Positions 15,000 through 30,554 of a stretch of 64,000 bases of DNA are shown in pieces. Within the stretch, counting starts at the first letter, position 1; the number at the start of each line of letters is the position of its first letter. The translations under genes and the position numbers were made by a program. Under the pieces are notes generated by a model that made no database searches, had not been told where the DNA came from, and was given only the letters and a program-made list of their open reading frames with translations. The stretch is from Myxococcales bacterium 68-20 (lineage in GTDB: Bacteria > Myxococcota_A > Polyangia > Polyangiales > Polyangiaceae). The stretch spans positions 434,001 through 498,000 of the forward strand of contig MKVQ01000005.1 of the NCBI GenBank assembly GCA_001899635.1. Reading direction: 5' to 3'.

Positions 15000-15107
15000 G
15001 ACGGCGATCCCAGCCGCGCCCAACCGCGACCGAAGGCCCAACCACGCCTCCCGAGCGTGAGGTTTTTCCCCTGAAACCGGGGCGCCATTGTGCGACCATG
15101 GGTGTCG

Positions 15108-18100
15108 ATGGCGGAAGGCCCCGGGCAAAGGTTTCCCTCGCCTCCGAAGACGGAAGACGCGGGCGTACGGAGCGCCGGCCGACCGGAGTACGAGTCGGTC
15201 GATCTCGAGGACGTCGAGGAGGTGCCCCTCAGCGTCGACGAGATCAGCGCCATCGACATCGACATCGAGGAGGACAACGTCGACAAGATCCTCGCGATGA
15301 CCGGTGAGAACTGGTCGATCGATGCCCAGCGCGAGACGCTGAAGGAGGCGGCGAAGGATCCCGCCACAAAGGACAAGCGGGACGGAAGGGAGTCTCCGCC
15401 GCCCCCCGGCGTGAAGCCTTCGCTCCACATCCCGACGCCGTACGACTTCGGCGGGACCGATCGCCCATCGGACTCGATCCTCGTCGACGACGCGGAGCTG
15501 AGTGGTGCGGTGGAGCCTGCTGGAGGCGGCCGCAAGGCTGCACGGGGGATCGAGGAACCGGCGCGCCCTTCCCTCACGCGTCCTCCGCAGCGCACGATGC
15601 CCCCGCCGCTTCCCGGCGGACCGAGCTCGATCGCGCCGCCGCGCAGCTTCCCGCCGCCGCCGCTTCCACCCCATCGTCCCGGCAGCTCCGGCTCGGTCAG
15701 GCCCGGCGCGCCGGCGTCGCGCAGGCCGCCGCCTCCCCCGCTCCCGAAGTCGGACATCACCGGAGCATCGCGCGTTCATCCCGTCGCCCCGCCGGAGCGC
15801 GAGGCGCCGCGCATCTCTCCCGAAGGTCACACGCTCGTCGAGCTCCTGACGACGCGCATCGAGCGCCTCGCCGGCGCCGAGGACCGCGTCGGTCTCTCGC
15901 GCGCACACCTCGAGCTCGCGATCGTCCACGAGACGCTCGGCGACGACACGAAGGTCAACGCGGAGGTCACTGCAGCGCTCGAGGTCGATCCCGATCTCGC
16001 GCCCGCGCACGGGATCCTCCGTCGCCGCCTCCACCATCGCACGCAGCTCGTGCCGATGCTCCGCCACCTCGACCGCGAGATCGCGGTCGCCTCGGGCGAG
16101 GCCGCGACCGTCGAGCTCCTCGTCGAGCGCGCCCGCTTGCTCGTCGCTGGCGATCGCACGGACGACGCGCGCGACGCGTGGGAGCTGGTCCTCAGCCGCG
16201 CACCGCATCACTCCGCGACGCTGAAGGGCCTCGAGACGGATCTCGGACGGCGCGTCTTCGCAGACCGAGCGGACCGAGGTGCGGCCGCCGGATCGAAGGC
16301 CCCCGCCGGCAAGGACGACCTCGTCCCGACCACGGACGAGGACCGATGGGAGGATCTCGTCACCCATCTCGGCCGCATGGCCGACGCGTACTCCGCGCAG
16401 CCCGATCTCGCAGCGTGGATCCACGTGGAGCGCGCGCGCCTCCTCGAGCACCGCCTCGGTCGCGTCGATGCCGCCCGCGGTGCGTTCGAGCGCGCCCTTC
16501 GGCTCGACGGCGGCGTCGGTCCGGTCCGTGATGCCTTCACGCTCCACTGCGCCGCGCATCACGACACCGCTCGCCTCGCCGCCCTCCTCGCGGAGGAGGC
16601 GCGCCTCGAGCCTTCTTCGTCCCGTTGCGCGCGCCTCGAGCTCGATGCCGCGACGCTCGCACACACGCTGCTCGGCGATGACGCGCAGGCCGTCGCGCTC
16701 CTCGAGCACGCCGCCGCGCGCGCCCCGACGACCCCGTCGGTCGATCGTCGCGTGCTCGACGACCTGGTTCGCCTCTACGAGACCTCGGGACAATGGCCCG
16801 AGGCCGCGCGCACGCGTCGCGCCCGGCTGCGCTTCTTCACCGATGCCTCCACGCAGGTCTACGAGCTCAAGCGCCTCTCGGCGATCGAGGAGCGGCTCGG
16901 CAGCCTCGAGGACGCGATCGGAGACATCGAGCGCGCGCTCGAGATCGACCCCGATGACGCCACGCTCGTCGACGAGCTCGATCGCCTCCTCTCGCTCGCC
17001 GGCAAGGACGACGTCCGTATCGCGCTCTGGCACGGCGAAGCGCAGCGCACCGAGGAGGGTTCCAAGCGCGCGCGCTCTCTCGCGAAGGCAGCGCAGCTCG
17101 CCGAGGCGATCGGCCGACACGACGAGGCGCTACGACACCTCCGCGCGGCCTGGGTCGCGGCCCCCGGCGACTCCGAGATCCTCGATCAGCTCTCCCGCCT
17201 GATGTCGCCCGCTCCGACGGAGACCTTCGACCGCGAGGTCCGCGGGCTGATCGAGCTCTACTCGCAGGCCGCGCAGGCCACGCGCGACACCGGGCGCCGT
17301 GTCGCCTACCTCGAGAAGGTCGCCGTCCTCTGGGAAGAGCTCGTTGGCGATCAACTCCGCGCGACGCGCACGTTCGAGGAGATCCTGCGGCTCGAGCCCG
17401 GGCGCCGTGGCGCGGTCCTCGGCCTCGAGCGCACCGCCGGTCGCGTCGGCGACGACCGCGCCCTCTCCCGGGCGCTCTCCGACGAGGCAAAGCTCGCCGA
17501 AGACGGCGTCGACGTCCTCGGCCTCCGCGTTCGCTCGGCGCAGGTCCTCTCGCGCGTCGACCCCGCGCGGGCTGCGAGCCTCGTCCACGAGGTCCTCGAG
17601 CAGGATCCTCACCACGTCGCTGCGCGCGCGCTCGAGACGCGCCTCCACGAGGAGGCCGGGCGCTGGGAGCTCGCGACCCAGTCGATCAGGGCCCGCCTCG
17701 ACATCGTCGTCACCACGATGGACAAGGTCGCGCTCTGGCTCCAGCTCGCGCAGATCTACGACGCGCGCCTGCGCGATCCGAAGTCCGCCGTGGAAGCGCT
17801 GCAGGAGGCTCGCAAGGCCGACCCGATCCATCCGGTGCCGCCCGAGGAGATCGCGCGCGTGCTCGAAGCCGCGGGCGACGCAAAGGCGCTCCGTGTCTCG
17901 ATCGAGCAGCTCTCCCAGGACGCGATCACCCCGCAGGAGCGCGCGCGCCACCTCACCCACGCCGCCGAGATCGACGAGCTCCGGCTCATGGACGATCTCA
18001 GCGCCGCGACGCTCTACGCGCGCGCCCTCACCGAGACGCCGGAGGACGAGCTCATCGCCGACCGCCTCGTGCGCGTGCTCGCACGCCGCATCGTCACCAC

Positions 18101-21100
18101 CGCCGGCGCGCCGGGACCGGTCGGGTTCGAGACCCCCGCTTTCCAGGAGCTCCTCGCGCAGCTCGCCAAGCGCGCCGAGAAGGCGACGACGCCCGCTCGA
18201 GCGCAGGCCTACTCATTCCTGCTCGCTTCTCTCCTCGTCGTCGCCAACGTCGACCTCTCACGCGCACGCGCGCTCCTCGACGCGATCCACGACGGCGACC
18301 CACGGCACGTCGGTGCGCTCCGCCTCCTCGAGGCGATCGCGCGGCGCGGGCCGAGCGCGCAGCAGGTCGCCAACGTCCTCAAGCAGCAGGGCGAGAGCTT
18401 CACCGACGTCCGCGCCCGGCTCGGCGCGCTCTGGGAGCTCGCGAGTCTCGAGGCGTGGCGGCTCTCCACCGGCGAGTCGGTCGCGACCTATACCCGCATC
18501 CTCGAGCTCGACCCGACCGATCCATCGGCCCTCGAGGCCGCCGTTCGGCTCGCGCTCTGGCCGGCGAGGCGCGGCGAGGTCGCTGCTCGGCGCGCGGCGG
18601 TCGCGGCGCTCCGCTCGCTCTCCGCCCTTGCACACGACGAGGCGATGCGCATCGCGAACGACCTCCGCCTCGGGCTCATGCTCGAGGCCCACGCGATGGA
18701 TCCGACGACCGAGCGCGACGCCATGACGAGCGCTTCGCGCGAATCGCTCGAGCGCCTCCGCGAGGTCCTCACCCTCGACCCGCTGAGCGTCACGGCCGCG
18801 ACCTCGCTCGCCCGCGTCGCCAATCGCCTCGGAGACGCGAGCGGCGCCGCCGCGGCCGCGATCTCCCTCGCCGAGCTGTCGGTCCAGCCCAAGGTTCGCG
18901 CCAAGTACCTCGTCGACGCGGCCAACCTCCTCCTCAGCGACTCTACCGACGAGGCGCTCGGACCGATGGACGAGCGCACCGAGCGCGCGGCCCAGCTCCT
19001 CGAGAAGGCGCTCGACTCGGATCCGAACTCCACCACCGCCGCGACCCGCCTCTCCCAGGTGCGCGGGGCGCAGCATCAGAGCGAGCGGCTCATCGACGTC
19101 TTCCGCAGCGCGCTCTCCCGCGCCACGGCTAAGGACACGATCGTCTTCGTCGGTACGGAGATCGCTCGCGTCGCCCGCGACGAGCTCGGCGAGATCGGCG
19201 TCGCGATCGAGGCGATGCGCGCGGTCCGCGCCGCCGCGCCCGATCACATCCCCTCCCTCCTCACGCTCTCGGAGCTCTTCATCGCCCAGCGCGCGTGGCC
19301 CGAGGCCGTGGAGACCCTCGAGGACATCGTCGCGCGCGGCAAGGAGCCCGCGCCTCGCGTCACCGCACTCTTCGCGCTCGCGAGCGTCTACGAGAAGGTG
19401 CTGAGCGATCCGATCGAGGCCGAGCGCGCCCTCCGCACCGCGCTCTCGATCGAGCCGGAGAACCCGCGAGCGATCCGCGCGCTCATCCATCGCCTCGCAG
19501 CGAAGCAGAACGAACCCGACGCGGACGGCCAACCGCAAAACAAGACCGCCGCCAAGCTCGAGATCGCGAGCCTGCTCGATCGCCTCGCGCACGTCGAGAA
19601 GGACCGCCACGTAAAATGCGACATCCTCCTCGAGCTCGCCGACATCCGCGTGGCGCTCAAGGACATGGCGCAGGCCGAGAAGGCGCTCGTCGAGGCCGTG
19701 GCGACCGCGCCCGACCACGCGCGGGCCTTCGCGCGACTCTCGCGCTTCTTCCGCTCGCCGCAGAACCCCGGACCGGGCGGCCTCGACGCCGTCTCGTACG
19801 CGCGCGCGCTCGGCGCCGTCATCGGACGCGGTCAGCAGCTCGGCACGTCCGATCCGCGCTGGTACGCGTCGCTCGGTCATATCGAGGTGGAGCAGCTCAA
19901 CCGCCTCCGTGACGGCGTCGGACACCTCCAGCGCGCCGTCCAGATGGACCCGAACCTGCACGAGTGCCGGTTCGAGCTCGCCAGCGCGTTCTCGCGGCTC
20001 GGCGCCCACGACGACGCGTCGAAGACCGTGCTCTCGATGATCACGCCGAACGCGACGCCGCTGGTATCGATCTCCGATCCCGCCGCGGCGCTCGAGCTCC
20101 TCGAGCGCGCGTTCAATGCCGAGCGCCGGCAGGAAGAGGCAATCGTCGTCAGCGAGCTCCGCGCGATCGCGGGGGAGCTCGACGAAGGGCGTCACGCCTG
20201 GCTCCGCGGGCGGAGGTTGCCGCCGTTCGAGCAACATCACGCCGTGCTCGATCGGAGCACGCTCGTGAGCCACGTCATCCCGCCCGAAGGCCGTCACCTC
20301 CTGCTCGACATCGCGGCTGCGATCTCGGGCATCGAGACGAAGCTCCTCCGCGCGGACATCAGCGAGATCGGGATCACCGCCCGCGACCGCATCGGAAAGC
20401 GGAGCGGGAACCCGACGCGCCTCCTCCTCGATCGCATCGCGAAGGCGCTCGGGATCGGCGACGTCGAGCTGGTCGTGACTCCGAACGTCTCGCGAACGCG
20501 CGTGCTCGCGCAGGACGGGATCTGGGTCGTCGTCCCGAAGGCGCTGACCGAGCTCCCCGAGCCGACGCAGCTCGCATCGATGGGACGCGCGCTCGCCCGC
20601 GTCGCGCTCAACGTCCCGTGGCTCGAGGAGCTGCCGCCCCCGCACATCGAGGCGATGCTCGTCGCCGCCGCGCGCGCGGTGAATCCGGCGTACGGCAAGG
20701 ACGACGTCGACGTCCTCTCGCTGAAGCTCGTGATGCAGTACGAGCCGAACCTCGCGAAGGAGCTCTCACGCAAGCAGAAGCAAGCGCTGGAGAAGCTCGT
20801 TCCGCTCATGAACGCGACGGGCCCGGGCTTCGGCGGTGCGCCGGGCGCCGGGCAAGGCGGACGCCTCATCCCGATCGACGTGCTCATCGGCGCCCTCGCT
20901 CGCGCGGAGCTCCGCATCGCGTACCTTCTCACGGGCGACGTGCTCGCGACGATCGACGAGCTGCGCGGCCTCGACAGCGCCTTCCTCCAGGCGACCGAGA
21001 GCGCTGGCCGCGGCTCGGTCGCGGCGGTGCTCGATCACCCGTTCGCAGGCGACGTCGTTCGCTTCGCGCTCACGCCCGAAGCGACGGCGCTCCGCCGCCG

Positions 21101-21125
21101 CGTCGGCTCCACCTGGGCGGGCTGA
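15108..21125 (+). CDS. Giant TPR-repeat protein (2005 residues)
   Basis: A very large, probably cytoplasmic repeat protein. The first 55 residues are acidic (SVDLEDVEEVPLSVDEISAIDIDIEEDNV). About residues 90-245 are a disordered Pro-rich linker with runs such as PPPPLPPHRPG. From about 250 to 1700 the sequence is back-to-back TPR-like helix pairs, typified by LYARALTETPEDELIADRLV and AIGDIERALEIDPDDATLV. The last 300 residues form a different, non-repeat domain (VIPPEGRHLLLDIAAAISG onward, including a Gly-rich stretch GPGFGGAPGAGQGG). No signal peptide or membrane segment is seen. Related long TPR proteins occur in Polyangia genomes, but I know no assigned role; scaffolding is an inference. 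The ATG at 15108 is preferred to a GTG at 15090. It converges on the hybrid kinase with 40 bp between. Confidence 0.85.
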   Translation: MAEGPGQRFPSPPKTEDAGVRSAGRPEYESVDLEDVEEVPLSVDEISAIDIDIEEDNVDKILAMTGENWSIDAQRETLKEAAKDPATKDKRDGRESPPPPGVKPSLHIPTPYDFGGTDRPSDSILVDDAELSGAVEPAGGGRKAARGIEEPARPSLTRPPQRTMPPPLPGGPSSIAPPRSFPPPPLPPHRPGSSGSVRPGAPASRRPPPPPLPKSDITGASRVHPVAPPEREAPRISPEGHTLVELLTTRIERLAGAEDRVGLSRAHLELAIVHETLGDDTKVNAEVTAALEVDPDLAPAHGILRRRLHHRTQLVPMLRHLDREIAVASGEAATVELLVERARLLVAGDRTDDARDAWELVLSRAPHHSATLKGLETDLGRRVFADRADRGAAAGSKAPAGKDDLVPTTDEDRWEDLVTHLGRMADAYSAQPDLAAWIHVERARLLEHRLGRVDAARGAFERALRLDGGVGPVRDAFTLHCAAHHDTARLAALLAEEARLEPSSSRCARLELDAATLAHTLLGDDAQAVALLEHAAARAPTTPSVDRRVLDDLVRLYETSGQWPEAARTRRARLRFFTDASTQVYELKRLSAIEERLGSLEDAIGDIERALEIDPDDATLVDELDRLLSLAGKDDVRIALWHGEAQRTEEGSKRARSLAKAAQLAEAIGRHDEALRHLRAAWVAAPGDSEILDQLSRLMSPAPTETFDREVRGLIELYSQAAQATRDTGRRVAYLEKVAVLWEELVGDQLRATRTFEEILRLEPGRRGAVLGLERTAGRVGDDRALSRALSDEAKLAEDGVDVLGLRVRSAQVLSRVDPARAASLVHEVLEQDPHHVAARALETRLHEEAGRWELATQSIRARLDIVVTTMDKVALWLQLAQIYDARLRDPKSAVEALQEARKADPIHPVPPEEIARVLEAAGDAKALRVSIEQLSQDAITPQERARHLTHAAEIDELRLMDDLSAATLYARALTETPEDELIADRLVRVLARRIVTTAGAPGPVGFETPAFQELLAQLAKRAEKATTPARAQAYSFLLASLLVVANVDLSRARALLDAIHDGDPRHVGALRLLEAIARRGPSAQQVANVLKQQGESFTDVRARLGALWELASLEAWRLSTGESVATYTRILELDPTDPSALEAAVRLALWPARRGEVAARRAAVAALRSLSALAHDEAMRIANDLRLGLMLEAHAMDPTTERDAMTSASRESLERLREVLTLDPLSVTAATSLARVANRLGDASGAAAAAISLAELSVQPKVRAKYLVDAANLLLSDSTDEALGPMDERTERAAQLLEKALDSDPNSTTAATRLSQVRGAQHQSERLIDVFRSALSRATAKDTIVFVGTEIARVARDELGEIGVAIEAMRAVRAAAPDHIPSLLTLSELFIAQRAWPEAVETLEDIVARGKEPAPRVTALFALASVYEKVLSDPIEAERALRTALSIEPENPRAIRALIHRLAAKQNEPDADGQPQNKTAAKLEIASLLDRLAHVEKDRHVKCDILLELADIRVALKDMAQAEKALVEAVATAPDHARAFARLSRFFRSPQNPGPGGLDAVSYARALGAVIGRGQQLGTSDPRWYASLGHIEVEQLNRLRDGVGHLQRAVQMDPNLHECRFELASAFSRLGAHDDASKTVLSMITPNATPLVSISDPAAALELLERAFNAERRQEEAIVVSELRAIAGELDEGRHAWLRGRRLPPFEQHHAVLDRSTLVSHVIPPEGRHLLLDIAAAISGIETKLLRADISEIGITARDRIGKRSGNPTRLLLDRIAKALGIGDVELVVTPNVSRTRVLAQDGIWVVVPKALTELPEPTQLASMGRALARVALNVPWLEELPPPHIEAMLVAAARAVNPAYGKDDVDVLSLKLVMQYEPNLAKELSRKQKQALEKLVPLMNATGPGFGGAPGAGQGGRLIPIDVLIGALARAELRIAYLLTGDVLATIDELRGLDSAFLQATESAGRGSVAAVLDHPFAGDVVRFALTPEATALRRRVGSTWAG

Positions 21126-21165: not shown

Positions 21166-24100
21166 TCAGTGGTGCATCAGCTGGCGAACGCGCTCGAGGA
21201 GCGCCGTCTGCGAGAATGGCTTCTGGAGGAGCATCTCGGACGCGACCTGGGCCTCCTCGAGCGGGATGCTCTCGGGTGAGAAGCCGGACACGAACAGCAG
21301 CTTCGCCGACAGATTGAGGTCGTAGAGGCGCCGTCCGAGCTCCGGCCCCGTCACGCCCGGCATGAGCACGTCGAGGATGACGAGCCCGATGCGCGCCCCT
21401 TGCTGACGCGCCACGTCGAGCGCCTCGAGCGAGCCGCTCGCCGCGACGACGCGATAGCCGTTGCGCTCGAGGATCTTGGCGATCGAGCGGCGCACGAGAT
21501 CGTCGTCGTCGACGACGAGGATCGTGTCGGGCCCCTCGTGCTTGACGATCGGAGCAGGCAGCGCGCCGATCGGGCGCACCGGCGAGAGGTGGCGGCGTTC
21601 GACGCGCTTGAGGAACAGGCGGAACTGGGTCCCCTTCCCGAGCTCGCTCGACACGTCGATGCCGCCGCCGCAATTGCGCGCGAAGGCGTAGACCATCGAG
21701 AGGCCGAGCCCGCTGCCGCTGCCCGACGGCTTGGTCGTGAAGAACGGCTCGAAGATCCGCGAGAGCGTCTCCGTGCTCATGCCCTCGCCGGTGTCGGAGA
21801 CCTCGAGCTCCACGTACGCCCCGGGCATGAGGTTGACGTGCTGGGCCGCGGCGTCACCGAGCACGACGTTCCTCGTCGTGATCGTGAGCGCCCCTCCGCT
21901 CGGCATCGCGTCGCGAGCGTTGATGAGGAGGTTGACGAGCGCCTGGTCGAAGCTCCCCTGATCCACCTCCACGGCGTCCACCGCGGGTGAGAGGTTCGTC
22001 GCGACGGTCACCTTCGATCCGACGACGCGCCGGAGCATCGGCTCGAGCGTGGCGATGAGCTGGTTGACGTCGTGCACCGCGACGGGCACCGGCTGGTGTC
22101 GCGAGAAGCTGAGGAGCTGGCTCGTCAACTGCGCGGCACGCGTGGTCGCCTGCGAGATGATGTCGAGCTCGATCGTCAGCTCGGCGTCGAGCGCGGCGCG
22201 CTCACGAGCCGCCGAGAGAGCGACCTTCATCGCCGCGAGCATGTTGTTGAAGTCGTGCGCGAGGCCGCCCGCGAGCTGCCCCATGGCCTCCATCTTCTTC
22301 GCTTGCTGGAGCGACGAATGGAGCTGCTCGCGCTCGAAGAGGAGACGCGCGATCTCGAGCGTGATCGGGACCTGATGAGAAAGGAGGACGAGGAGCGACC
22401 GATCATCGAGCGTGAAAGGGGCGTCGTCGACCGAACGCTCGATGCAGAGCGCGCCGACGGGCTTCTCGTAGAGGTTCAGCGGCACCGCGATCACGCGGGT
22501 CGGATCGAAGGGCTGTTCGCCCACGCCGCGCGCCTCACCGGTGAGAGGCGGCCACGCCTCGCCCGCTTGATGGACCGCGCGGAGCAGCGCGCCATGGGGG
22601 GAGTCGGCGCCGATCGAGATCGAGATCTCGCTCCCGCGGTGGCGGAAGACGGCCGTCCCCGTCGTGGTGGACTCCGGCTGGAACCAGATCGCCCCGCGAG
22701 CCGCGTTGATCGAGCTCATGAGCTCGTCGAGGATCCTGCCTGCCTGCTGCTCTGTCTTCAGATCACGCCGTGGCGCCTGGGCAACGTGAAGCAGCGCCGC
22801 GAGCTGGCGGTTCATGCGGCTCGATCGGCGGCTGCTGCTCGAACCTTCGAGCGCGGTCACCTCCAGCACCGGGGTCGGCAACGCGAACTCCTCGCGCACC
22901 CAGCGTGCCCGATGCACCGCGCCGTGCTCGGTAGCGAGCATCTCGGCGATACGAGCTTGATCGCGTGCGGCGTCGCCGCGGCCTTCGGCGCGAAGCTTGT
23001 GCGCACGCGCGCGAGCCACGCCATAGAGGACCCACGTACAGCTCTGCTCGTCCGCGAGGGCCTCGGCCTCTCCGAGCGCCTTGCTCGCCTTTCGCTCGTT
23101 GCCCTCGAACCACGCGAGCGTGCCCTCGGCGAGGAGCAAGTGGGCGCGCAACACCGGGAGCTTCGCGATGACAGCGAAGTCCGCTGTCGCCCGTCGGAGC
23201 GCCCCGACGTGGCGGTCTCGCTCGAGCGCGCTCGAGCGGAACGCCTGGAACATCCGGGCGTGGACGATCGCGAGGTAGTACTCGAACACCACGGGATGGG
23301 CAGAGCGAGGCTCGTGGCCCTCCGCGTCGAAGGCTCGGATCAGCTCGTCGAATTCATCGCCGAAGTCGCCGCGCTCGACGTACCAGCGCGCCCGCGGCCC
23401 CCACGAGAGAAGGCGGTGAAAGCCGTGTCCACCGTCGCCGGCGGCGACGGCCGACAGCTGCGCCGCGAGCCATGGCGAGCTCGGCTCCCGCCCGAGCACC
23501 GCCAAGGTCGCGCGGGTCCGATGCAGCAGGTACTCCACCGCCACCGGTCGCGTATTGCTGCGACGAAGGCGGTCGAGCCCTCGCTCGAGCCACGACCACG
23601 CCTCGATCGACCGCCCGCGCGCCGCCTGGATCATCTCGGCATTCGAGATGTGGTAGCAGTACTCGTTGAGCTCGAGCCACGGCCCGAAGATGTCGACGCA
23701 CTCGCGGGCGAGGTTCATCCCCACGTCCAGCTCGCCGGCGTAGAGCAGCGCCGACGATCGTAGCTGGAGGCAGAAGACCGTCGTCACCGGGTCGTGCTGC
23801 TCCGCGGCGATGGCCTCGGCCCGGGCGAACTCGCGGGCGCTCGCATCGTGGAGGCGCATCCCCTTGAGGACGAAACCATTGATCGCACGGGCGCGCGCCG
23901 TTGCCCGCGCCGAGGCCCCTTGCTTGCTCAGCTCCAGAGCCTCGGCGCTGCTCTGGACGAGGCGGAGCGGCTCACCGTACTCGAGGCCGAGACGCGCGTT
24001 CTGATAGTGCAGCCCCGAGAGCAGCTCGATCTCGTTGCGCCCCGGCGCGCGGGCGGCGCGATCGACGAAGCGCCTCGCCTTCGCGCCGGCAACCGCGAGC

Positions 24101-26583
24101 GCGGTCCGTGCCGCCGACCCGACGGTACCGACGGGCATCCGAACGCCGAGCGCGAGGAAGGCGCGCTCGAGCATCTCGGAGGCGCGCTTCGGCTCCGCCC
24201 GCGTCTGGTACACCCAGGCGAGCCGCCCGAGCAGCGTCGCGCGCTCCTCCGGATCCGCCGAGCACTCGAGCGCGGCCCCGAACGCGGCGAGGCTCTCGTC
24301 GAGCATGCCGAGCCGGAGCTGCGCCTCTCCTACGGCGCGGTGGTGGTTGGCGTCGAGCCTCCTTCCCGCTCGGGCGGCTGCCTTGCTCGCATAGCCTAGG
24401 TACTCGAGCGCGGTCTCGTTGCTGAAGCGGTCGAGTGCGGCCCTTGCCGCCGCGCGGCAGGCGTCGAGAGCCTGCGACGGGTCCTTGTCGACCTCACCGT
24501 TCACGAAGTGGAGCGCGATCGCGCAGAGTGCGTCGACGGTCGACGACCGCTCCGACGCGAGCGACTCCGCGACACGCTGATGCAGGCGCTTGCGCGCGCC
24601 GCCCTCGATCCCCTCGAGCAACATCTCGCGGAGGCTGTCGTGGACGAAGCGATGGCTGCCGTCCCCCTCCGACTCCACGAGCCCTGCGCGACGCGCCGCC
24701 GCCAGCCCGAACCCGAGGTCGTCGACCGAGAGATCGACCACGCGGGCGAGCAGCTCGTCGTCGAACGCGGTCCCGATCACCGCTGCGGCCTCGAGCACGC
24801 GCTGCGTCGCGGCCGGGAGCTCCGCGAGGCGGCGGCCGAGCAGCGCGAGCGCGCCGCGCGGAAGGACGATGCGATCGGCGCGGGCGACGTCGAAGAGCCA
24901 GGCACGGGAGTGCGGCCGGACCGCGCCCGCGTCGAGGAACGCTCCCAGCACCTCGAGGACACCGAGCACCGTCCCGTCGGCCATCGCATGGACGCGGCGT
25001 ACGAGGGCCTCGCTCGCACGCAGCTCGCCAAGGTGCGAGGCAACGAGCGCGCCGACCTGCGTCTCGGTCAGCGGCCCGAGCTCCACGACGAGGGTCCGCT
25101 TCGGCAGTGCGGCCGCAAAGCGATCCGCGAGCGCGCCGGGCGAGCTCGCGCTGGAGCGAGAGCCGAGCAGCAGCACGATGGGGGCCTCGCCGACCCGGTA
25201 CGCGACGCGCAGCAAGGCGTCTGCGCTCGCCGGATCCATCCACTGGATGTCGTCGATGAAGAGGTGGAGCGGCCGCCGCGCGGCGAGGCGGAGGAGGATC
25301 TCCGCTGCGCCCTCGGCGAGCGCGTCGGCGCCGCCCGTGCTCGGCGGGACGCCCTGGCCGGAGACTCCATCGCTCGCGGCGCCCGCGAGGCTCGGCGCGA
25401 TGATCTTGGCGACGAGCGCGAGCTTGCCGAGGCTCGCCATGAACTCGTCATCACTCGAAGCGGGTCTGCCTCGCCGCCTCGTCGATGCAACATAGCCCTC
25501 GAGGATGCGGCGCAAGGTGGAGAGCGGCGCGTCGTCCCGCGTGCACTTGAGCTCCAGGACGGTGCCGCGCTCGCGCGCGCGCCCAGTGACCGCCGCGAGG
25601 AGCCGCGTCTTGCCGGCACCGCGTTTTCCGCTGACGACGACCACGGCGCCGCGCTCGCGGACCGGTCCCTCGGCGTCTTCCCGTTTCGTCTTTCGCTCCG
25701 ACACGGAGCCGAGGAAGTCCCCGATCTGCTCGAGCTCGGCAGCGCGCGCCACGAGGGGGATCGCCCTGCGATCGAGCTCGTAGCCGCTCGGGCCGAGGAG
25801 CGGCTCGCCCCGGGCCATCCGCTCGAGCTCCGCCTTCACCGCGCGCGCCTCCGGGTAGCGGTCCTCGGGATCGTGCTGGAGCAGGCCAGCGATGATCTCG
25901 GCGAGATCGACGGACACTGCCGACGCGATCAGCTCCGCGCGCGCGTCCGCGCCGAACGGACCGACCCCCGTGCGCGTCGCGAGCGCCTGGCCCGTGAGAC
26001 ACTCGAGGAGCACCCGCCCGACCGCGAAGAGGTCCGTACGGCCGTCCACCCGGCCCGGCATCACGAGCTGCTCCGGCGCGGCGTAGGCAGCCGTCCCGGC
26101 CGCGTCCTCCCTACCCAGCCGCTCGATCGGGGTCGCGAAGCCGAAGTCGACGAGCTTCAACGCACCGCCGGTGCTCTCGATGATGATGTTGCGCGGCTTG
26201 ACGTCACGATGAACGAGGCCGGCGTCGTGGACGGCGGAGAGCGCGTCGAGCAGCTCGCTCAGCAGGGCGATGCATACGCTCTCGTCGAGCCGTTCCGCCT
26301 GCATCCGCCCCGCGAGCGTCTCGCCGACGACCAGCTCCATCACGAGGTACGGCAGACCGTCGACGTCGCCGACCTCGAGGACCTCGGGTAGCGCGCGGTG
26401 CTTGACCCGCGCGAGCGCGACGGCCTCGCGATAGATCCAGCGCGTCCAGCGCGCCTTCACGCTCGGCAGCTTCACCGCACACGGTGTTCCGGCCTGCACC
26501 GCGCGGTAAACGACCGAGTGAGCTCCGCGTCCGAGCTCGTCGAAGATCTGGATGCCTGGGAGCTGCGGACTACTGAAGGCCAT
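21166..26583 (-). CDS. Ser/Thr kinase - ATPase - TPR - GAF - histidine kinase - receiver hybrid
   Basis: A single chain of about 1805 residues. Order: a Ser/Thr kinase (about 12-260) with G-loop GRGAHSVVY, AVK lysine, HRDVKPRN, DFG and APE motifs all present; an AAA/STAND-type ATPase with Walker A GKRGAGKT (about 320) and Walker B LHLFIDDIQWMD (about 441); a long TPR-like helical region; a GAF domain (about 1230-1400); a histidine kinase with AHDFNNML (His about 1444), NLLINARDAMPSGG, DTGEGM and GSGSGLGLSMVY; a receiver with Asp in LVILDVLMPG (about 1739) and Lys in LLQKPFS. All catalytic residues are visible. HstK-type Ser/Thr-His kinases of cyanobacteria and myxobacteria share much of this plan. 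The gene lies 67 bp downstream of the YcaO gene on the same strand and may be co-transcribed. ATG at 26583 (GTG just before). Confidence 0.93.
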   Translation of the reverse strand: MAFSSPQLPGIQIFDELGRGAHSVVYRAVQAGTPCAVKLPSVKARWTRWIYREAVALARVKHRALPEVLEVGDVDGLPYLVMELVVGETLAGRMQAERLDESVCIALLSELLDALSAVHDAGLVHRDVKPRNIIIESTGGALKLVDFGFATPIERLGREDAAGTAAYAAPEQLVMPGRVDGRTDLFAVGRVLLECLTGQALATRTGVGPFGADARAELIASAVSVDLAEIIAGLLQHDPEDRYPEARAVKAELERMARGEPLLGPSGYELDRRAIPLVARAAELEQIGDFLGSVSERKTKREDAEGPVRERGAVVVVSGKRGAGKTRLLAAVTGRARERGTVLELKCTRDDAPLSTLRRILEGYVASTRRRGRPASSDDEFMASLGKLALVAKIIAPSLAGAASDGVSGQGVPPSTGGADALAEGAAEILLRLAARRPLHLFIDDIQWMDPASADALLRVAYRVGEAPIVLLLGSRSSASSPGALADRFAAALPKRTLVVELGPLTETQVGALVASHLGELRASEALVRRVHAMADGTVLGVLEVLGAFLDAGAVRPHSRAWLFDVARADRIVLPRGALALLGRRLAELPAATQRVLEAAAVIGTAFDDELLARVVDLSVDDLGFGLAAARRAGLVESEGDGSHRFVHDSLREMLLEGIEGGARKRLHQRVAESLASERSSTVDALCAIALHFVNGEVDKDPSQALDACRAAARAALDRFSNETALEYLGYASKAAARAGRRLDANHHRAVGEAQLRLGMLDESLAAFGAALECSADPEERATLLGRLAWVYQTRAEPKRASEMLERAFLALGVRMPVGTVGSAARTALAVAGAKARRFVDRAARAPGRNEIELLSGLHYQNARLGLEYGEPLRLVQSSAEALELSKQGASARATARARAINGFVLKGMRLHDASAREFARAEAIAAEQHDPVTTVFCLQLRSSALLYAGELDVGMNLARECVDIFGPWLELNEYCYHISNAEMIQAARGRSIEAWSWLERGLDRLRRSNTRPVAVEYLLHRTRATLAVLGREPSSPWLAAQLSAVAAGDGGHGFHRLLSWGPRARWYVERGDFGDEFDELIRAFDAEGHEPRSAHPVVFEYYLAIVHARMFQAFRSSALERDRHVGALRRATADFAVIAKLPVLRAHLLLAEGTLAWFEGNERKASKALGEAEALADEQSCTWVLYGVARARAHKLRAEGRGDAARDQARIAEMLATEHGAVHRARWVREEFALPTPVLEVTALEGSSSSRRSSRMNRQLAALLHVAQAPRRDLKTEQQAGRILDELMSSINAARGAIWFQPESTTTGTAVFRHRGSEISISIGADSPHGALLRAVHQAGEAWPPLTGEARGVGEQPFDPTRVIAVPLNLYEKPVGALCIERSVDDAPFTLDDRSLLVLLSHQVPITLEIARLLFEREQLHSSLQQAKKMEAMGQLAGGLAHDFNNMLAAMKVALSAARERAALDAELTIELDIISQATTRAAQLTSQLLSFSRHQPVPVAVHDVNQLIATLEPMLRRVVGSKVTVATNLSPAVDAVEVDQGSFDQALVNLLINARDAMPSGGALTITTRNVVLGDAAAQHVNLMPGAYVELEVSDTGEGMSTETLSRIFEPFFTTKPSGSGSGLGLSMVYAFARNCGGGIDVSSELGKGTQFRLFLKRVERRHLSPVRPIGALPAPIVKHEGPDTILVVDDDDLVRRSIAKILERNGYRVVAASGSLEALDVARQQGARIGLVILDVLMPGVTGPELGRRLYDLNLSAKLLFVSGFSPESIPLEEAQVASEMLLQKPFSQTALLERVRQLMHH

Positions 26584-26585
26584 CA

Positions 26586-26619
26586 CTGCCCGGCCAGGCT
26601 ACCCCGGGCAGCGCCTCCT
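26586..26619 (-). promoter_or_regulatory. Shine-Dalgarno separated from the start codon by a hairpin
   Basis: On the minus strand a consensus AGGAGG (26619-26614) lies 30 bp ahead of the hybrid-kinase ATG, too far for normal use. Between them CTGCCCGG and CCGGGCAG (26611-26604 and 26593-26586) pair perfectly over 8 bp with a 10-nt loop, leaving 2 nt on each side. If folded, the hairpin would bring AGGAGG within reach of the ATG. It could instead be a weak terminator for the YcaO operon. Confidence 0.5.
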
Positions 26620-26649
26620 AGGAACGCGCAAACGCTGTCGTCGCCCTCA

Positions 26650-27747
26650 TCACGAGATCGGATGAATCCGACGCTCGACGGGCACGTCGGCGCTGAGCGG
26701 TGATTCGCCGAAGACGAGCGGGCGGGCCGTTGCGCAGATCGCCTTCGCGACGCGCAAGCCGCCACCGAGCCAGCGGGGCGTCAGGTCGGCGAACAGCACC
26801 TCCTCGGCGCCGATCCGACCGACCGTTCTGTTTCGAGTGGCCTGCGCGCCGAGCAAGGTCGGCGAGTCGTGTAGGCGCGCGGCGTCGGCTCGAACGTGCT
26901 CGCCGGCGAGCCACGACCGGAGGAGCGAATGATGCGCGTGCGCCTGGTGAAAGTCGAGGTGCCCCATCGCCGTCGGCTCCGTGCTGGCGGACACCTCCGC
27001 GACGGGCTCACCCCAGAGGAAGCCGAGGAGCTGGACCGCCTCGCGTGTCGCGTCGTCGAGCGCCGCCTGCCGGTCGGGACGCGCGGCGAAGCCAATCGCG
27101 AGCGGAGCGTCGGGCCGGGTCGGGAATCCGAAGACGCCCACGACCGAGATGCCGCGCGAGAACGAGTCGGCGCCCTCCTCGGGGAAGAGCCACGCCGACC
27201 AGTCGTAGCAGGTCGTCGCACCGAGCCCGACCGGCGCTCCATCGATACGGAGCGGACGCACCTCTCCGTTCCACGAAGCGAGCACGCGATCGCGCTCCGC
27301 GAGCTCCCACAGCGCGCGTTCGCAGGCGCGCGACCAGTCACCGTGGATCGCGACGCCGTTCGAGCGAGCGTAGCGCCACGTCGACGGGTCGTCGCTCTCG
27401 GGGAAGAGGTCGCGGTGCGCGCACGTGCGAACGAACGTGCCGGACGCGGTCCGGAGCTCGTAGGCGGCCGCCGGCGCTCGCATCGCCTCGACGATGCTCG
27501 CGCGTTCGAGCAGCTCGAACCAGCTCCTCGACGCGGCCGAGATCTCACCGGCATGCGCCTCGTCGAGCGACGCAGCCGAGCCGGTGATCTCCTCACCGTC
27601 CGGCGCGACGCTCGCGATCCCCGCTCTCCGGATCGAGAGCCCGTCGACGACGATGACGTCTTCGCAGCTCTCGGGGACCGACCAGCCCTCAGGCAGCGGG
27701 GGCCTGAGCGAATCCGTCTCGGATCGAAGGCTTGCTGACGCGGCCAT
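26650..27747 (-). CDS. YcaO-domain protein, candidate peptide-backbone-modifying enzyme
   Basis: YcaO enzymes use ATP to activate peptide-backbone amides and make azolines, thioamides or amidines in ribosomal peptides (or modify ribosomal proteins). This 365-residue protein shows the core signature: SNGVAIHGDWSRACERALWE followed by LAERDRVL (about 129-155), which carries the nucleotide and Mg2+ ligands, and a later REAVQLLGFLWGE. It lacks the Pro-rich PxPxP tail of azoline-forming members and any fused E1-like or TfuA partner, so the reaction is not predictable. The ATG has GGAG 4 bp ahead and overlaps the upstream oxidase gene by 59 bp. Its neighbours (heme-oxygenase-like oxidase, nine-codon peptide, GNAT) suggest peptide natural-product biosynthesis. 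Likely cytoplasmic. Confidence 0.85.
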   Translation of the reverse strand: MAASASLRSETDSLRPPLPEGWSVPESCEDVIVVDGLSIRRAGIASVAPDGEEITGSAASLDEAHAGEISAASRSWFELLERASIVEAMRAPAAAYELRTASGTFVRTCAHRDLFPESDDPSTWRYARSNGVAIHGDWSRACERALWELAERDRVLASWNGEVRPLRIDGAPVGLGATTCYDWSAWLFPEEGADSFSRGISVVGVFGFPTRPDAPLAIGFAARPDRQAALDDATREAVQLLGFLWGEPVAEVSASTEPTAMGHLDFHQAHAHHSLLRSWLAGEHVRADAARLHDSPTLLGAQATRNRTVGRIGAEEVLFADLTPRWLGGGLRVAKAICATARPLVFGESPLSADVPVERRIHPIS

Positions 27748-28393
27748 GGGTCTCCGCGAGCTCCGTGCAGAAAGCGTAGAAGTAGTCCATCGAGTCGCGA
27801 AGCACCTCGCGCATGCGCGGCAGCATGCTGGGCTCGGCGACGAGATCGTCGATGCAGTCGAGGGCTTCCTCGACGTGGCCCTGATCGATCTCGATGTGCT
27901 TGTCGATGACGGTCATCGACGTGCGCGGGATCCCGCAGTTCTCTTCGAGGAGGCGGAGCCACTCCGGACCGATGACGACCGTGAAGTACTCGCCGAAGAG
28001 GATGTACGCGAGGAAGAGCGTCGGATCTTCGTCGATCGTCCGAAGGATGAACGCCACGTGGCGCTCCATCGCTGGCAGCACGCCCGGCGCCGCCTCGACC
28101 GTGGCCGGCAGCGACGCGAGGTCGTCCTCCGCCCAGCGGAAGTGACCGGCCTCCTCCACGAGCTTGTGTTTGAAGTGGTCCGCGAGCTTGTGATCGCCGC
28201 GCGCGATCGCGAGCTTGCGCGCTCGGACCAGGCAGATCGGCGTGTGGCGGAGCAGGTGATGCAGGTTCGTCAGGTAGGCCCGGATGCAGACGCCGTCGAC
28301 GTTCCCCTCCTCCGCCATCCGGAAGAGCAGGTTGTCACGGCACTTCGTCTTCGCAAACGTCTCGATGTCAGCGCGGAGCGCATCAGCGATCAT
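27689..28393 (-). CDS. Heme-oxygenase-like (TenA/PqqC-type) iron-containing redox enzyme
   Basis: A 234-residue all-helical protein of the heme-oxygenase-like diiron oxidase/oxygenase (HDO) type, annotated in databases as iron-containing redox enzyme. Candidate metal ligands are spaced as in the family: LVEEAGHFRWAEDD (Glu 80/81, His 84), FGEYF (Glu 135) and DKHIEIDQGH (His 166, Asp 170, His 173). Known members such as UndA, SznF and CADD perform O2-dependent oxidation, decarboxylation or fragmentation of amino-acid-derived substrates. Here the substrate may be the product of the adjacent YcaO enzyme or the tiny peptide. The ATG has a GAGGAA Shine-Dalgarno. It lies just after the stem-T-tract element and overlaps the YcaO gene. 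Confidence 0.85.
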   Translation of the reverse strand: MIADALRADIETFAKTKCRDNLLFRMAEEGNVDGVCIRAYLTNLHHLLRHTPICLVRARKLAIARGDHKLADHFKHKLVEEAGHFRWAEDDLASLPATVEAAPGVLPAMERHVAFILRTIDEDPTLFLAYILFGEYFTVVIGPEWLRLLEENCGIPRTSMTVIDKHIEIDQGHVEEALDCIDDLVAEPSMLPRMREVLRDSMDYFYAFCTELAETHGRVSKPSIRDGFAQAPAA

Positions 28394-28424
28394 GGTCGTT
28401 CCTCGGAAGCAGCCGAAAAATAGG

Positions 28425-28462
28425 AAGCGGCATGACCTCGATCATTCGAGGTCATGCCGCTT
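28425..28462 (-). terminator. 17-bp perfect stem with T-tract between tiny ORF and oxidase gene
   Basis: Arms AAGCGGCATGACCTCGA and TCGAGGTCATGCCGCTT pair without mismatch around a 4-nt loop. On the minus strand the stem is followed by CCTATTTTT. It begins 5 bp after the stop of the nine-codon reading frame and ends 31 bp before the oxidase ATG. A terminator inside an operon would give more short transcript than full-length transcript, as is usual after RiPP precursor genes. As a perfect palindrome it could also bind a regulator. Confidence 0.85.
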
Positions 28463-28467
28463 GGCAC

Positions 28468-28497
28468 TCAGAAGGTCGCGCGTGCAAACTTCTTCAT
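28468..28497 (-). CDS. Nine-residue peptide MKKFARATF, candidate minimal RiPP precursor
   Basis: The frame reads ATG AAG AAG TTT GCA CGC GCG ACC TTC TGA. AAGGAG sits 6 bp before the ATG, the best-placed Shine-Dalgarno in this stretch. The ATG overlaps the GNAT stop as ATGA, an arrangement that favours translation by reinitiation. A 17-bp stem with a T-tract follows at once, then the oxidase and YcaO genes. The peptide is basic, with one Thr, two Phe and no Cys or Ser. Inference: substrate of the YcaO and oxidase enzymes, with no separable leader. Pentapeptide precursors such as that of the biarylitides show such tiny genes exist. It could instead be a regulatory leader peptide. I know no described family with this sequence. 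Confidence 0.6.
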   Translation of the reverse strand: MKKFARATF

Positions 28498-29114
28498 GGT
28501 CGGCTCCTTTCGGTGGTGGTGTTTGCGGGTACGTCCAAAAACTGCCCCCGGTAGATGCGCTCCGCCTCGTCATCGAGGAACTTCGTGAAGCGCAAACTGA
28601 GCCCCCACCTCTCAGAACTGCTTGTCGACGTGACGATGAAACCTTGGTTGCTGAGCAGCCGCACCATCGGGCGGTTTGCCGGCGATGTGTCGACCTCCAT
28701 CCGCTTCACTCCCGCCTCGCGGAATCGGGCATAGAGAGGCTCTGCAAGGGAGGCGACGAGGTTGCGCTGCCGGTACTCGGGCAGGATCGTCGCGACCCGC
28801 CAGTAGTAGGTCGACCAGTCCAACGGATGCGCGACGATGACGCCGACGATCTTCGCCTCGGCGCGGAAGACGAAGACGTCCATCTCCTCCCCGAACCGGC
28901 GCTTTGCCTCGGTCATCTCCTCCTGGAGCCACTGGCGACCGACGTTGAACGTCTGCGGGAAGACCTCTGCCATGAACGGCAACACGTCCGCGAGACGCTC
29001 GTACTCGACGCGGACGTCGTCGAAGTGCCACGGGAGGATGCTCTTCCAGTCGATGTCCCAGAGCCTCTGCGACATCGACACACGCGGCGCCTCTCCGGGG
29101 CTGACGCGGCTCAT
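28494..29114 (-). CDS. GNAT N-acetyltransferase, first gene of the YcaO operon
   Basis: A GNAT-fold protein of about 206 residues: a long N-terminal helical part, then KIVGVIVAHPLDWSTYYWRV, the acetyl-CoA loop LPEYRQRNLVASLAEPLYAR, and NRPMVRLLSNQGFIV, the strand-helix that ends the fold. The family acetylates amines; in this operon the target could be the peptide's N-terminus or Lys side chains, or the enzyme could confer self-protection (inference). I start at ATG 29114 (MSRVSPGEAPRVSMSQRLWD) because of a GGAG 6 bp upstream; ATGs at 29162 and 29075 are possible and the frame is open to 29375. The stop overlaps the nine-codon frame. It diverges from the receiver-EAL gene. Confidence 0.8.
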   Translation of the reverse strand: MSRVSPGEAPRVSMSQRLWDIDWKSILPWHFDDVRVEYERLADVLPFMAEVFPQTFNVGRQWLQEEMTEAKRRFGEEMDVFVFRAEAKIVGVIVAHPLDWSTYYWRVATILPEYRQRNLVASLAEPLYARFREAGVKRMEVDTSPANRPMVRLLSNQGFIVTSTSSSERWGLSLRFTKFLDDEAERIYRGQFLDVPANTTTERSRP

Positions 29115-29283
29115 CCCCGACTCCGGGACCTCCAACGCATTCGTGCGAGCGGCTAGCGCCATCGTGGGGACATTGACTACCGCCGTTCCTCCAGGTGGGC
29201 CAAAGTTCCTGCAACGAATTCCACGGTTATCCCAATTAGTACTTTCGCTATCCCTACAGACCCACATTTCCCCCACGATCTGC

Positions 29284-29302
29284 AGGGTGAGCAACTCACC
29301 CT
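29284..29302. promoter_or_regulatory. 8-bp inverted repeat in the divergent intergenic region
   Basis: AGGGTGAG and CTCACCCT face each other around CAA, in the roughly 240 bp between the YcaO-operon GNAT gene (minus) and the receiver-EAL gene (plus). The neighbouring stretch 29205-29265 is clearly more A+T-rich than the surroundings, as expected of a promoter region. A shared operator is plausible; no regulator is identified. Confidence 0.4.
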
Positions 29303-29357
29303 CGCGATTGATCGACGACGGCGACGCAACCTGCGCTCTACTGGGCGCGGCGAACGA

Positions 29358-30554
29358 ATGACTCCAGCTCCGCATACGCCGAAGATCCTGCCCCGCCCCG
29401 CCACCCTACCCCGCCTTCTCCTCGTCGAGGATGACGAGGCGCTACGAGCCGCCCTCGTGCGCATGCTCGCCCGTCGCTTCGAGGTGACGTCGCTCTCGGA
29501 CGGCTCGACCGCCGCCGAGCGCTTGAGGGGCGATCGCTTCGACGTCGTCCTCAGCGACATCCATCTCCATGGGATGAACGGGATCGATCTCCTGCGCCTC
29601 GTGCGCTCGGCGGATCTCGATGTCCCGGTGATCCTGATGACAGGGTTGCCCGACGTCGACAGCGCGATCGAAGCGATGGATCTCGGCGCGCTCACGTACA
29701 TCAAGAAGCCGTTCGAGCTGAGCGTCCTCGACGGAGCGCTCGCGCGAGCGACGAAGCTCGCGGCGCTCGCGCGAGCGAAGCGCGATGCGATCGATGCTGG
29801 GCTCGGAGGCTCCCCTGCGTCGAACGAGCACGCCGCGCTGACGACGAGCTTCGATCGTGCCCTCGACTCGATCCGGATCGCGTTCCAGCCGATCGTCGAA
29901 GGTCGTTCGCGCAAGACGATCGGCTTCGAGGCGCTGATGCGCTCGTACGAGCCGACGATGCCGAGCCCGGCGGCGGTCCTCGACGCGGCGGAGCGCCTCG
30001 ACCGCATCCACGAGGTCGGCAGGTGCGTGCGTGCGCGCACCGCGGCGGCCTTCGAGCGTGAGAACCACGACGCCCTTCTCTTCGTGAACCTCCACGCGGC
30101 CGATCTCGTCGACGACGACCTCTACGATCCCAAGGCCCCGCTCTCGAAGCTCGCGGACCGCGTCGTCCTCGAGATCACCGAGCGGGCGGCGATCGGCGAC
30201 ATCAGCGACGCCCGACAGCGGACCGCGGAGCTCCGCCGGCGCGGCTTCAAGATCGCCATCGACGATCTCGGCGCCGGCTACGCGGGCCTCACGAGCTTCG
30301 CGACGTTCGAGCCCGAGATCGTGAAGCTCGACATGTCGCTCGTGCGCGGGATCGAGTCTTCGCCGGTGAAGCGCCTCATCGTGGGACGGATCGCCGGCCT
30401 CTGTCGCGATCTCCAGATGCGCGTCGTCGCAGAGGGCATCGAGACCAATGAGGAGCTCGCATGCATGCTCGAGCTCGGCTGCGAGTACCTGCAGGGCTAC
30501 CTCCTCGGACGACCCGACGAGGCGCGGCGTCCGAGCAACTACCCCTGGGAATGA
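29358..30554 (+). CDS. Receiver-EAL protein (cyclic di-GMP phosphodiesterase)
   Basis: A 398-residue two-domain regulator. Residues about 18-130 are a response-regulator receiver (LLLVEDDEAL, phospho-Asp in VVLSDIHLHG, Lys in YIKKPFE). Residues about 160-395 are an EAL domain with its metal and catalytic residues: FEALMR, FVNLHAADL, LEITERA, IDDLGAGYAG, VKLDMSLV, AEGIET and LQGYLLGRP. The enzyme should open cyclic di-GMP to pGpG when phosphorylation permits. No histidine kinase is adjacent; the hybrid kinase at 21-26 kb or kinases elsewhere may feed it. It diverges from the YcaO operon and converges on the cyclase gene. ATG at 29358, no strong Shine-Dalgarno. Confidence 0.93.
   Translation: MTPAPHTPKILPRPATLPRLLLVEDDEALRAALVRMLARRFEVTSLSDGSTAAERLRGDRFDVVLSDIHLHGMNGIDLLRLVRSADLDVPVILMTGLPDVDSAIEAMDLGALTYIKKPFELSVLDGALARATKLAALARAKRDAIDAGLGGSPASNEHAALTTSFDRALDSIRIAFQPIVEGRSRKTIGFEALMRSYEPTMPSPAAVLDAAERLDRIHEVGRCVRARTAAAFERENHDALLFVNLHAADLVDDDLYDPKAPLSKLADRVVLEITERAAIGDISDARQRTAELRRRGFKIAIDDLGAGYAGLTSFATFEPEIVKLDMSLVRGIESSPVKRLIVGRIAGLCRDLQMRVVAEGIETNEELACMLELGCEYLQGYLLGRPDEARRPSNYPWE

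Follow-up and report, generated by a model that had tools for sequence, protein, structure and literature searches.

The locus described here raises a question of two parts: does a reading frame of nine codons, set among genes for peptide-modifying enzymes, encode a peptide in its own right, and, if so, what becomes of that peptide? The window, by which we mean the whole 64,000-nucleotide stretch of myxobacterial DNA that was analysed, carries an operon of five genes on the minus strand at 21166–29375. Read 5′ to 3′, these encode a GNAT acyltransferase (PF00583; 28494–29162), the nonapeptide MKKFARATF (28468–28497; nine codons and TGA), a heme-oxygenase-like diiron enzyme (HDO, PF14518; 27689–28393), a standalone YcaO protein (PF02624; C-terminus HPIS; 26650–27747) and, directly 3′ of the YcaO gene, a hybrid sensor kinase of 1,806 residues (21166–26586). 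The start codon of the GNAT gene is uncertain; ATG 29162 was adopted, while the open frame extends to ATG 29375. The nine-codon gene, hereafter the minigene, is a candidate gene for a precursor peptide on the grounds of its sequence, its relatives and a codon test. The minus strand around it reads ..CACCGAAAGGAGCCGACC-ATGAAGAAGTTTGCACGCGCGACCTTCTGA.., in which the Shine–Dalgarno sequence AAGGAG and a 6-nt spacer (28498–28509, minus strand) precede the minigene ATG, and this start overlaps the GNAT stop by 4 nt. A perfect 17-bp stem with a 4-nt loop, followed by CCTATTTTT, begins 5 nt past the minigene stop and forms a terminator-like hairpin (28425–28462, minus strand) in the region between the minigene and the HDO gene. 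The ribosome-binding site with its spacing, the ATGA overlap, the stem with its T-tract, and the HDO and YcaO genes downstream on the same strand had all been pointed out in an earlier reading of the window (the original prediction), and the minus-strand sequence and coordinates bear them out. The same reading expected peptide derivatives of a 1069-Da class, whereas the mass computed for unmodified MKKFARATF is 1098.60 Da. The hybrid kinase downstream of YcaO was absent from it.

The minigene is a true, selected and very short coding gene. The host, to judge by a near relative, L010, is a Labilithrix-like member of the Myxococcota. In L010, counted as one genome with G443 as the sequences agree, the HDO is 87% identical and all 30 nt of the minigene are unchanged, while the flanks differ. 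Among genomes with HDO homologues only 34–44% identical (G149, G347, G337 and G111), the short frames between the GNAT and HDO genes read MKKFATGTF, (V)KKFARTSL, MKKRFALNCL and (V)KKKFAHMSF, respectively. Over 21 loci with 20 different peptides, the family follows the pattern M-[K/R]-K-(K/R)0-1-F-A-x-x-[T/S/C]-x and a stop, with 9–10 codons, and the minigene keeps its place in relatives whose enzymes are mostly 28–53% identical. Here 27 bases of coding sequence stay conserved among genomes whose enzymes are down to about a third identity.

Searched as a DNA pattern, the minigene was found in 18 of the 183 genomes of the order, once in each, and the reversed control pattern in none; a stricter pattern matched 4 of 377 genomes across the phylum (control, 0). 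Every pattern match adjoins a GNAT gene of the family, and those contigs that run on carry HDO and/or YcaO together with the kinase; in G432, the contig stops just past the minigene. Three further loci came from protein homology and lie outside the pattern, namely VKKRFALITH (G473), MRKKFALACY (G288) and MKKKFAHITA (G258). The DNA pattern required K-K and F-A as well as a codon that fits T, S or C, and loci found by it are not independent evidence at those places. Since the pattern presupposes the conserved residues, a search with the window HDO protein alone is the less biased test. By this route, the 16 genomes of the order that match strongly (E 2e-34 or better) without exception hold a minigene, that of G432 being found by the pattern on a different contig from its HDO gene. 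G288, from another class, also gives a strong match and has the minigene, and all loci found through HDO carry T, S or C in the second-last position. No minigene lies beside the HDO gene at four weak matches (G468, G368, G177 and contig 429 of G258), and inspection of the short frames at the weak matches of G293, G329, G171 and G291 (L016, L017, L076 and L077) brought up no such peptide.

Codon usage within the family was compared in 20 minigene rows, leaving out G443, whose minigene is identical to that of the window. The K2, K3, F and A codons show a pS of 0.76 and a pN of 0.02 (pN/pS 0.02), the two variable places a pN/pS of 1.4, the last two codons 0.58, and all codons together 0.39. K2 is replaced by R once, in G288, and the Ala codon appears in all four GCN forms (GCG 6, GCT 5, GCC 5, GCA 4). 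The second-last residue is T in nine rows, S in six and C in five, and it is one of these three in 21 of 21 loci; the last residue is F in 11 rows, L in six, and H, Y and A in one each. Such a pattern of change indicates selection on the peptide, with a presumptive nucleophile kept at one place. The original prediction had named two outcomes that would count against it, enzymes without a conserved short frame beside them and codons that drift freely; the searches returned a conserved short frame beside the homologous enzymes, and nearly all change in the K, K, F and A codons is synonymous. A chance reading frame was rejected on the conservation in relatives, the pattern counts against the reversed control and the codon test. 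One mark of a RiPP, an encoded short peptide under coding selection, is present at this locus. In a separate observation, G149 and G487 (L011 and L052) have identical GNAT proteins and YcaO proteins at zero distance, yet their peptides end in GTF and GSF, T in the one being replaced by S in the other at the second-last place; G487 also has a broken HDO frame.

The overlap between the GNAT stop and the minigene start is seen in 11 of the 21 loci (10 of 20 plus G258), and might be taken to mean that the enzymes have another target and the minigene is a mere device of translational coupling. We regard this as very improbable, given that the amino acids are conserved while synonymous change is free, and that eight loci with 3–127 nt between the GNAT gene and the minigene keep the same kind of peptide. 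An insensitive scan of contigs with short-peptide patterns outside the phylum returned 29 stretches with one relative, the near relative L010, plasmid records held no HDO or GNAT match, and a literature search, limited for subscription papers, found no description of the minigene family. Nine-codon genes fall below the limit of gene finders, and families of this kind are therefore hard to see in annotated databases.

Within the order, the minigene co-occurs as a unit with YcaO, GNAT and the hybrid kinase. Profile searches found GNAT (E 1e-15) and YcaO (E 1e-10) each in 20 of the 183 genomes, and the minigene is present in the same 20, in 18 by pattern and in G473 and G258 by inspection. A second mark of a RiPP, an associated peptide-modifying enzyme, is provided by YcaO and GNAT in these same 20 of 183 genomes. 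The chance of this agreement, 1/C(183,20), would be 10^-26 for genomes independent of one another, but these are not independent. Members of the system served to build the profiles, and scoring was confined to the best 15 or 11 candidates in each genome; what the co-occurrence says is therefore that none of the genomes yielded one of the families in the absence of the rest; genomes lacking GNAT and YcaO were searched for the minigene by the strict pattern only, and many of the compared genomes are fragmented drafts. Of the 12 genomes in the genus of the window, 5 carry the set, and neither a GNAT nor a YcaO match was seen in the remaining 7.

The YcaO gene shares a contig with the minigene in 16 of the 20 genomes, the contig of G432 is consistent with an assembly break, and in G258, G430 and G473 YcaO is unlinked and stands among unrelated genes. 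The idea that YcaO is dispensable was rejected, as the three loci that seemed to be without it have these unlinked copies, which the YcaO tree places among linked ones. Midpoint-rooted trees of YcaO and GNAT divide the family into a mostly MKKF and a mostly MKK[KR]F group; support is moderate, there are unresolved forks, and G258 is placed differently in the two. The middle region of the kinase was found in the same 20 genomes and, as a remote relative, in G125; the kinase lies in the same gene run in all 18 genomes whose contig allows a check, and is part of the core in the order. No minigene-like frame, GNAT match or YcaO match was found near the remote relative in G125.

The HDO is more loosely attached. 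It is full length in 15 of 20 genomes, damaged in two (with a broken frame in G487, and in G357 shortened so that the ligand region is missing) and absent at the locus in three (G413, G425 and G258), and its role as an obligatory partner was rejected on this account. With 5 of 20 genomes lacking an intact HDO at the locus, the core within the order comes down to GNAT, minipeptide, YcaO and kinase, and HDO is an extra. Two assignments of the original prediction are reversed by these counts: it had placed HDO in the core and left GNAT, which is present in the same 20 genomes, in the background. Its central idea, a minimal YcaO precursor, finds good support in the result that 20 of 20 minigene genomes hold YcaO even where it is unlinked. 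The window HDO scores 27.1 bits against PF14518 (cut-off 28.9), and its candidate metal ligands E80/E81, H84, E135, H166, D170 and H173 are invariant in 16 aligned homologues. The predicted structure (pLDDT 91) adopts an HDO/TenA fold, with the uncharacterised Shewanella protein 3dde as the best match, followed by CADD, and with UndA and PolF lower among the matches.

The one locus outside the order is that of G288, whose 10.4-kb contig carries YcaO, GNAT, the minigene and HDO but no kinase. It may have arrived by transfer or be a contaminant, because the genome is 6% contaminated and is the only strong case in its class; an HDO profile run over 90 genomes of that class returned G288 and two weak matches. 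A phylum-wide GNAT profile found only G000, G111 and G149 among 207 genomes, a sample that perhaps leaves out G288. In G468, a YcaO match of 50 positions lies below threshold, and decayed remnants of HDO and kinase stand near a contig end (L070, 9850–10491) with no minigene seen near them, perhaps the trace of a recent loss of the system.

What the YcaO would do to the peptide is suggested by the enzyme and by the residue it may act on. YcaO motifs are invariant in 17 aligned homologues, and the only NCBIfam match, in 17 of 17, is the azoline-forming SagD family TIGR03604, against which the window protein scores 48.9 bits (cut-off 219.25). The best solved relatives are TruD, MusD and LynD. As in linear azol(in)e peptides (TOMMs), Cys, Ser or Thr is found in the putative modified region, in 20 of 20 rows. 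A proline-rich C-terminus is said to mark azoline-forming YcaOs in the account of PMC8442711; the 17 aligned proteins, judged by eye, end in HPI[ASPV] or HPVA with no proline-rich tail. Additionally, the window operon has no E1-like or ocin-ThiF partner, and the window YcaO carries no other Pfam domain. With neither tail nor partner protein, filing as a classical TOMM is disfavoured and the chemistry is left undecided; cyclodehydration to an azoline at the second-last place is favoured because the residue there is always T, S or C.

The absence of a proline-rich tail would also suit a YcaO that makes a backbone thioamide or amidine rather than an azoline, with all else much as in the reading that we prefer, and in thiovarsolins a YcaO and a heme-oxygenase-like enzyme go together where a thioamide is made (PMC6511847). 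This alternative seems unlikely to us. No TfuA gene is found in the window operon (21166–29375), thioamidation offers no evident role for a T, S or C that all 21 loci retain, and an amidine would call for an N-terminal amine that is blocked if GNAT acylates the N-terminus. The original prediction had preferred thioamide or amidine formation, or oxidation of Phe or Lys, to azole rings, Thr being the only hydroxyl residue; the constancy of T, S or C at that position in 21 loci lends this preference no support and suggests that the Thr is not incidental.

The minigene probably supplies the complete precursor of a tiny modified peptide. Specifically, the standalone YcaO would spend ATP on a ring closure that joins the second-last Thr, Ser or Cys, through its side chain, to the carbonyl before it and leaves an oxazoline or thiazoline adjacent to the C-terminus, and the N-terminal M-K-K-(K/R)-F-A would act as a recognition element inside the peptide, replacing a separate leader; we consider both azoline formation and the internal recognition element likely. 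It is plausible, too, that GNAT acylates the N-terminus or a lysine and that HDO, where present, oxidises the product further, either from azoline to azole or by a side-chain desaturation of the kind proposed for VarO of thiovarsolin (PMC6511847). The window operon showed no recognisable gene for a protease or a transporter. If the peptide is modified, the enzymes would accept a substrate without a separate leader, a property useful for peptide engineering.

The hairpin behind the minigene may set the dose of the peptide. The 121-nt fold has a z-score of -5.5, and 0 of 200 shuffles are as stable. A simple terminator scan finds 1 site against a shuffle mean of 1.6, so sites are no more numerous than chance would give and it is the length of the stem that stands out. 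Three Rfam matches fall far under their gathering scores and none lies on the hairpin, and a known Rfam RNA was rejected at this place. A Shine–Dalgarno-type site is found in the 20 listed minigenes, a list pre-filtered for AGG or GGA. By analogy with microcin C, the hairpin would stop many transcripts after the minigene, and because many transcripts end there the peptide would outnumber the enzymes.

A short reading frame right before a terminator-like hairpin is at the same time the textbook layout of a regulatory leader peptide, in which a ribosome reading the nine codons would control the hairpin, by attenuation or arrest, and with it the downstream genes, and the peptide would be no product. 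Arrest peptides this short exist, and the hairpin covaries in four close relatives, where 5 of 17 pairs change on both sides (9 of 500 shuffles score as high) in a set of few and related sequences. Other features do not fit such a role. The stem 3′ of the minigene is unmatched by 30 mononucleotide shuffles in 12 of 20 loci and not so in 8, and the T-tract is clear mainly in the window. The gene to be controlled varies: HDO, intact or damaged, comes next in 17 loci including G288, YcaO in G413 and G425 and the kinase in G258, while in G432 the contig ends. Moreover, the minigene genomes are the YcaO genomes even with YcaO unlinked, and interchange of T, S and C at one place fits a nucleophile better than an arrest codon. 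Regulation by a leader peptide is accordingly improbable in our judgement, and we keep to a precursor peptide with a terminator-like element behind it.

Among known systems, the architecture is closest to that of microcin C, and the enzymes are unrelated. The microcin C gene mccA has seven codons (MRTGNAN) and a conserved short length, no leader being mentioned for it, and between this gene and mccB lies a transcription terminator at which termination is brought about when ribosomes bind mccA (PMC6495379). The tiny precursor gene, the terminator-like element before the first enzyme gene and the conserved short length are shared with the present locus, and the hairpin may play the same role as that terminator. 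Unlike microcin C, in which MccB adenylates the C-terminus, the present system has YcaO, GNAT and HDO. No MccB-type ThiF adenylyltransferase was found in the window operon. To our knowledge, no sensor kinase is known for microcin C.

Other small RiPPs share single features. Biarylitides also have a minimal precursor gene that evades annotation, bytA with five codons, and myxarylin is a myxobacterial member; there, a P450 crosslinks residues and the leader has two residues, and the main text of these papers does not mention YcaO (PMC13417212, PMC12951456). No cytochrome P450 lies beside the window minigene. Thiovarsolins (VarA/VarY/VarT/VarO) likewise bring a YcaO and a heme-oxygenase-like enzyme to one ribosomal peptide, and their product is N-acetylated, as proposed by an enzyme outside the cluster; a repeating precursor, a TfuA partner and the thioamide are their own (PMC6511847). 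A YcaO with a heme-oxygenase-like gene is also described in Sinorhizobium (PMC8120280), so the pairing as such was already known from these two cases. Goadsporin combines azoles and an N-terminal acetyl group on one ribosomal peptide, with six azoles and two dehydroalanines peculiar to it (PMC5303826). Streptamidine, found by short-peptide mining, resembles the system in its standalone YcaO and differs in its leader-containing precursor, its amidine, its hydrolase and dehydrogenase partners and the proline-rich C-terminus of its YcaO AmiD, which the window YcaO lacks (PMC8442711).

The kinase suggests what the product may be for. Its domains run Ser/Thr kinase, AAA_16 (STAND-like), TPR-like solenoid, GAF, HisKA, HATPase and receiver, with TPR_12 under its cut-off in the window protein. 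Among 13 long copies, HRD is found in 10, DFG in 13 and HDFNN in 12, and the Ser/Thr kinase part looks degenerate in G473 and G258. At L069 (8800–10020) and L098 (4610–10030), the kinase frame is open and the Ser/Thr kinase motifs are degenerate, as in a pseudokinase, with the rest kept. The model of the middle region (pLDDT 85) consists of winged-helix-like elements and a long solenoid (about residues 475–1275), which resembles MalT domain III (Z 17.7, rmsd 4.5, 348 aa), the Rap–PhrC complex (Z 17.1, rmsd 3.3 Å, 274 aa), NprR–NprX (Z 15.0) and a STAND-TPR protein (Z 14.7). Helical repeats readily give high structural Z, and unrelated eukaryotic TPR proteins score equally or higher (top Z 20.6). 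The modelled fold is of a suitable type for such a reader, in a fitting operon, and is not proof of peptide binding.

In RRNPP receptors, the solenoid reads a short peptide, and RRNPP peptides derive from exported propeptides. Here the peptide is directly encoded, the putative reader is a Ser/Thr–His hybrid kinase, and the RRNPP route of an exported propeptide that is cut and re-imported is not seen, the gene having only 9–10 codons. The kinase resembles RRNPP receptors and MalT/STAND sensors (PDB 4gyo, 4gpk, 1hz4, 6mfv) in its modelled TPR-like solenoid, which in those proteins reads a small ligand. We therefore raise, tentatively, the possibility that the product is a signal read by the solenoid of the kinase from the same operon. 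A fuller picture, in which the YcaO-modified and acylated nona- or decapeptide is a dedicated signal (an intracellular messenger or a pheromone) read by the solenoid of a STAND-type hybrid kinase, and a 30-bp gene, its maturases and its receptor form a portable unit, is more doubtful.

Many small RiPPs are bioactive compounds, and the peptide might instead be an antimicrobial or metal-binding agent, modified in much the same way, with the kinase regulating the operon and nothing more. The antibiotic microcin C (PMC6495379) and the G288 locus, which has no kinase beside it, are in keeping with this. On the other side, no immunity or export gene was recognised in the window operon, the kinase is present in 20 of 20 peptide-bearing genomes of the order, and the very low peptide diversity across old divergences would be unusual for a weapon. 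We rate such a function as possible, if somewhat unlikely. The conserved peptide, its modifying enzymes and the sensor kinase in distant myxobacteria suggest one of the smallest encoded modified-peptide systems, possibly a signal. If the kinase does read the peptide, the locus would be a compact myxobacterial signal module in which ligand, maturases and receptor are testable with a synthetic 9-mer.

Several neighbouring genes were also observed. The unlinked YcaO gene of G258 (L121, contig 610, 3122–6283, minus strand) lies directly upstream of a gene for a small Cys-rich protein, beside genes that we take to be of the DUF692 (MNIO) and DUF2063 kinds in a bufferin-type arrangement. In the window, a receiver-EAL protein is encoded at 29358–30554 (plus strand), divergent from GNAT, and L010 has a similar neighbour; its gene may encode a response partner for the hybrid kinase or just happen to lie there. 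A gene for a large protein (15090–21125, plus strand) converges with the kinase gene, and the C-terminal part of this protein is encoded at the same place in G347 (L012, 13991–14935, minus strand), so that the locus is partly syntenic within the genus.
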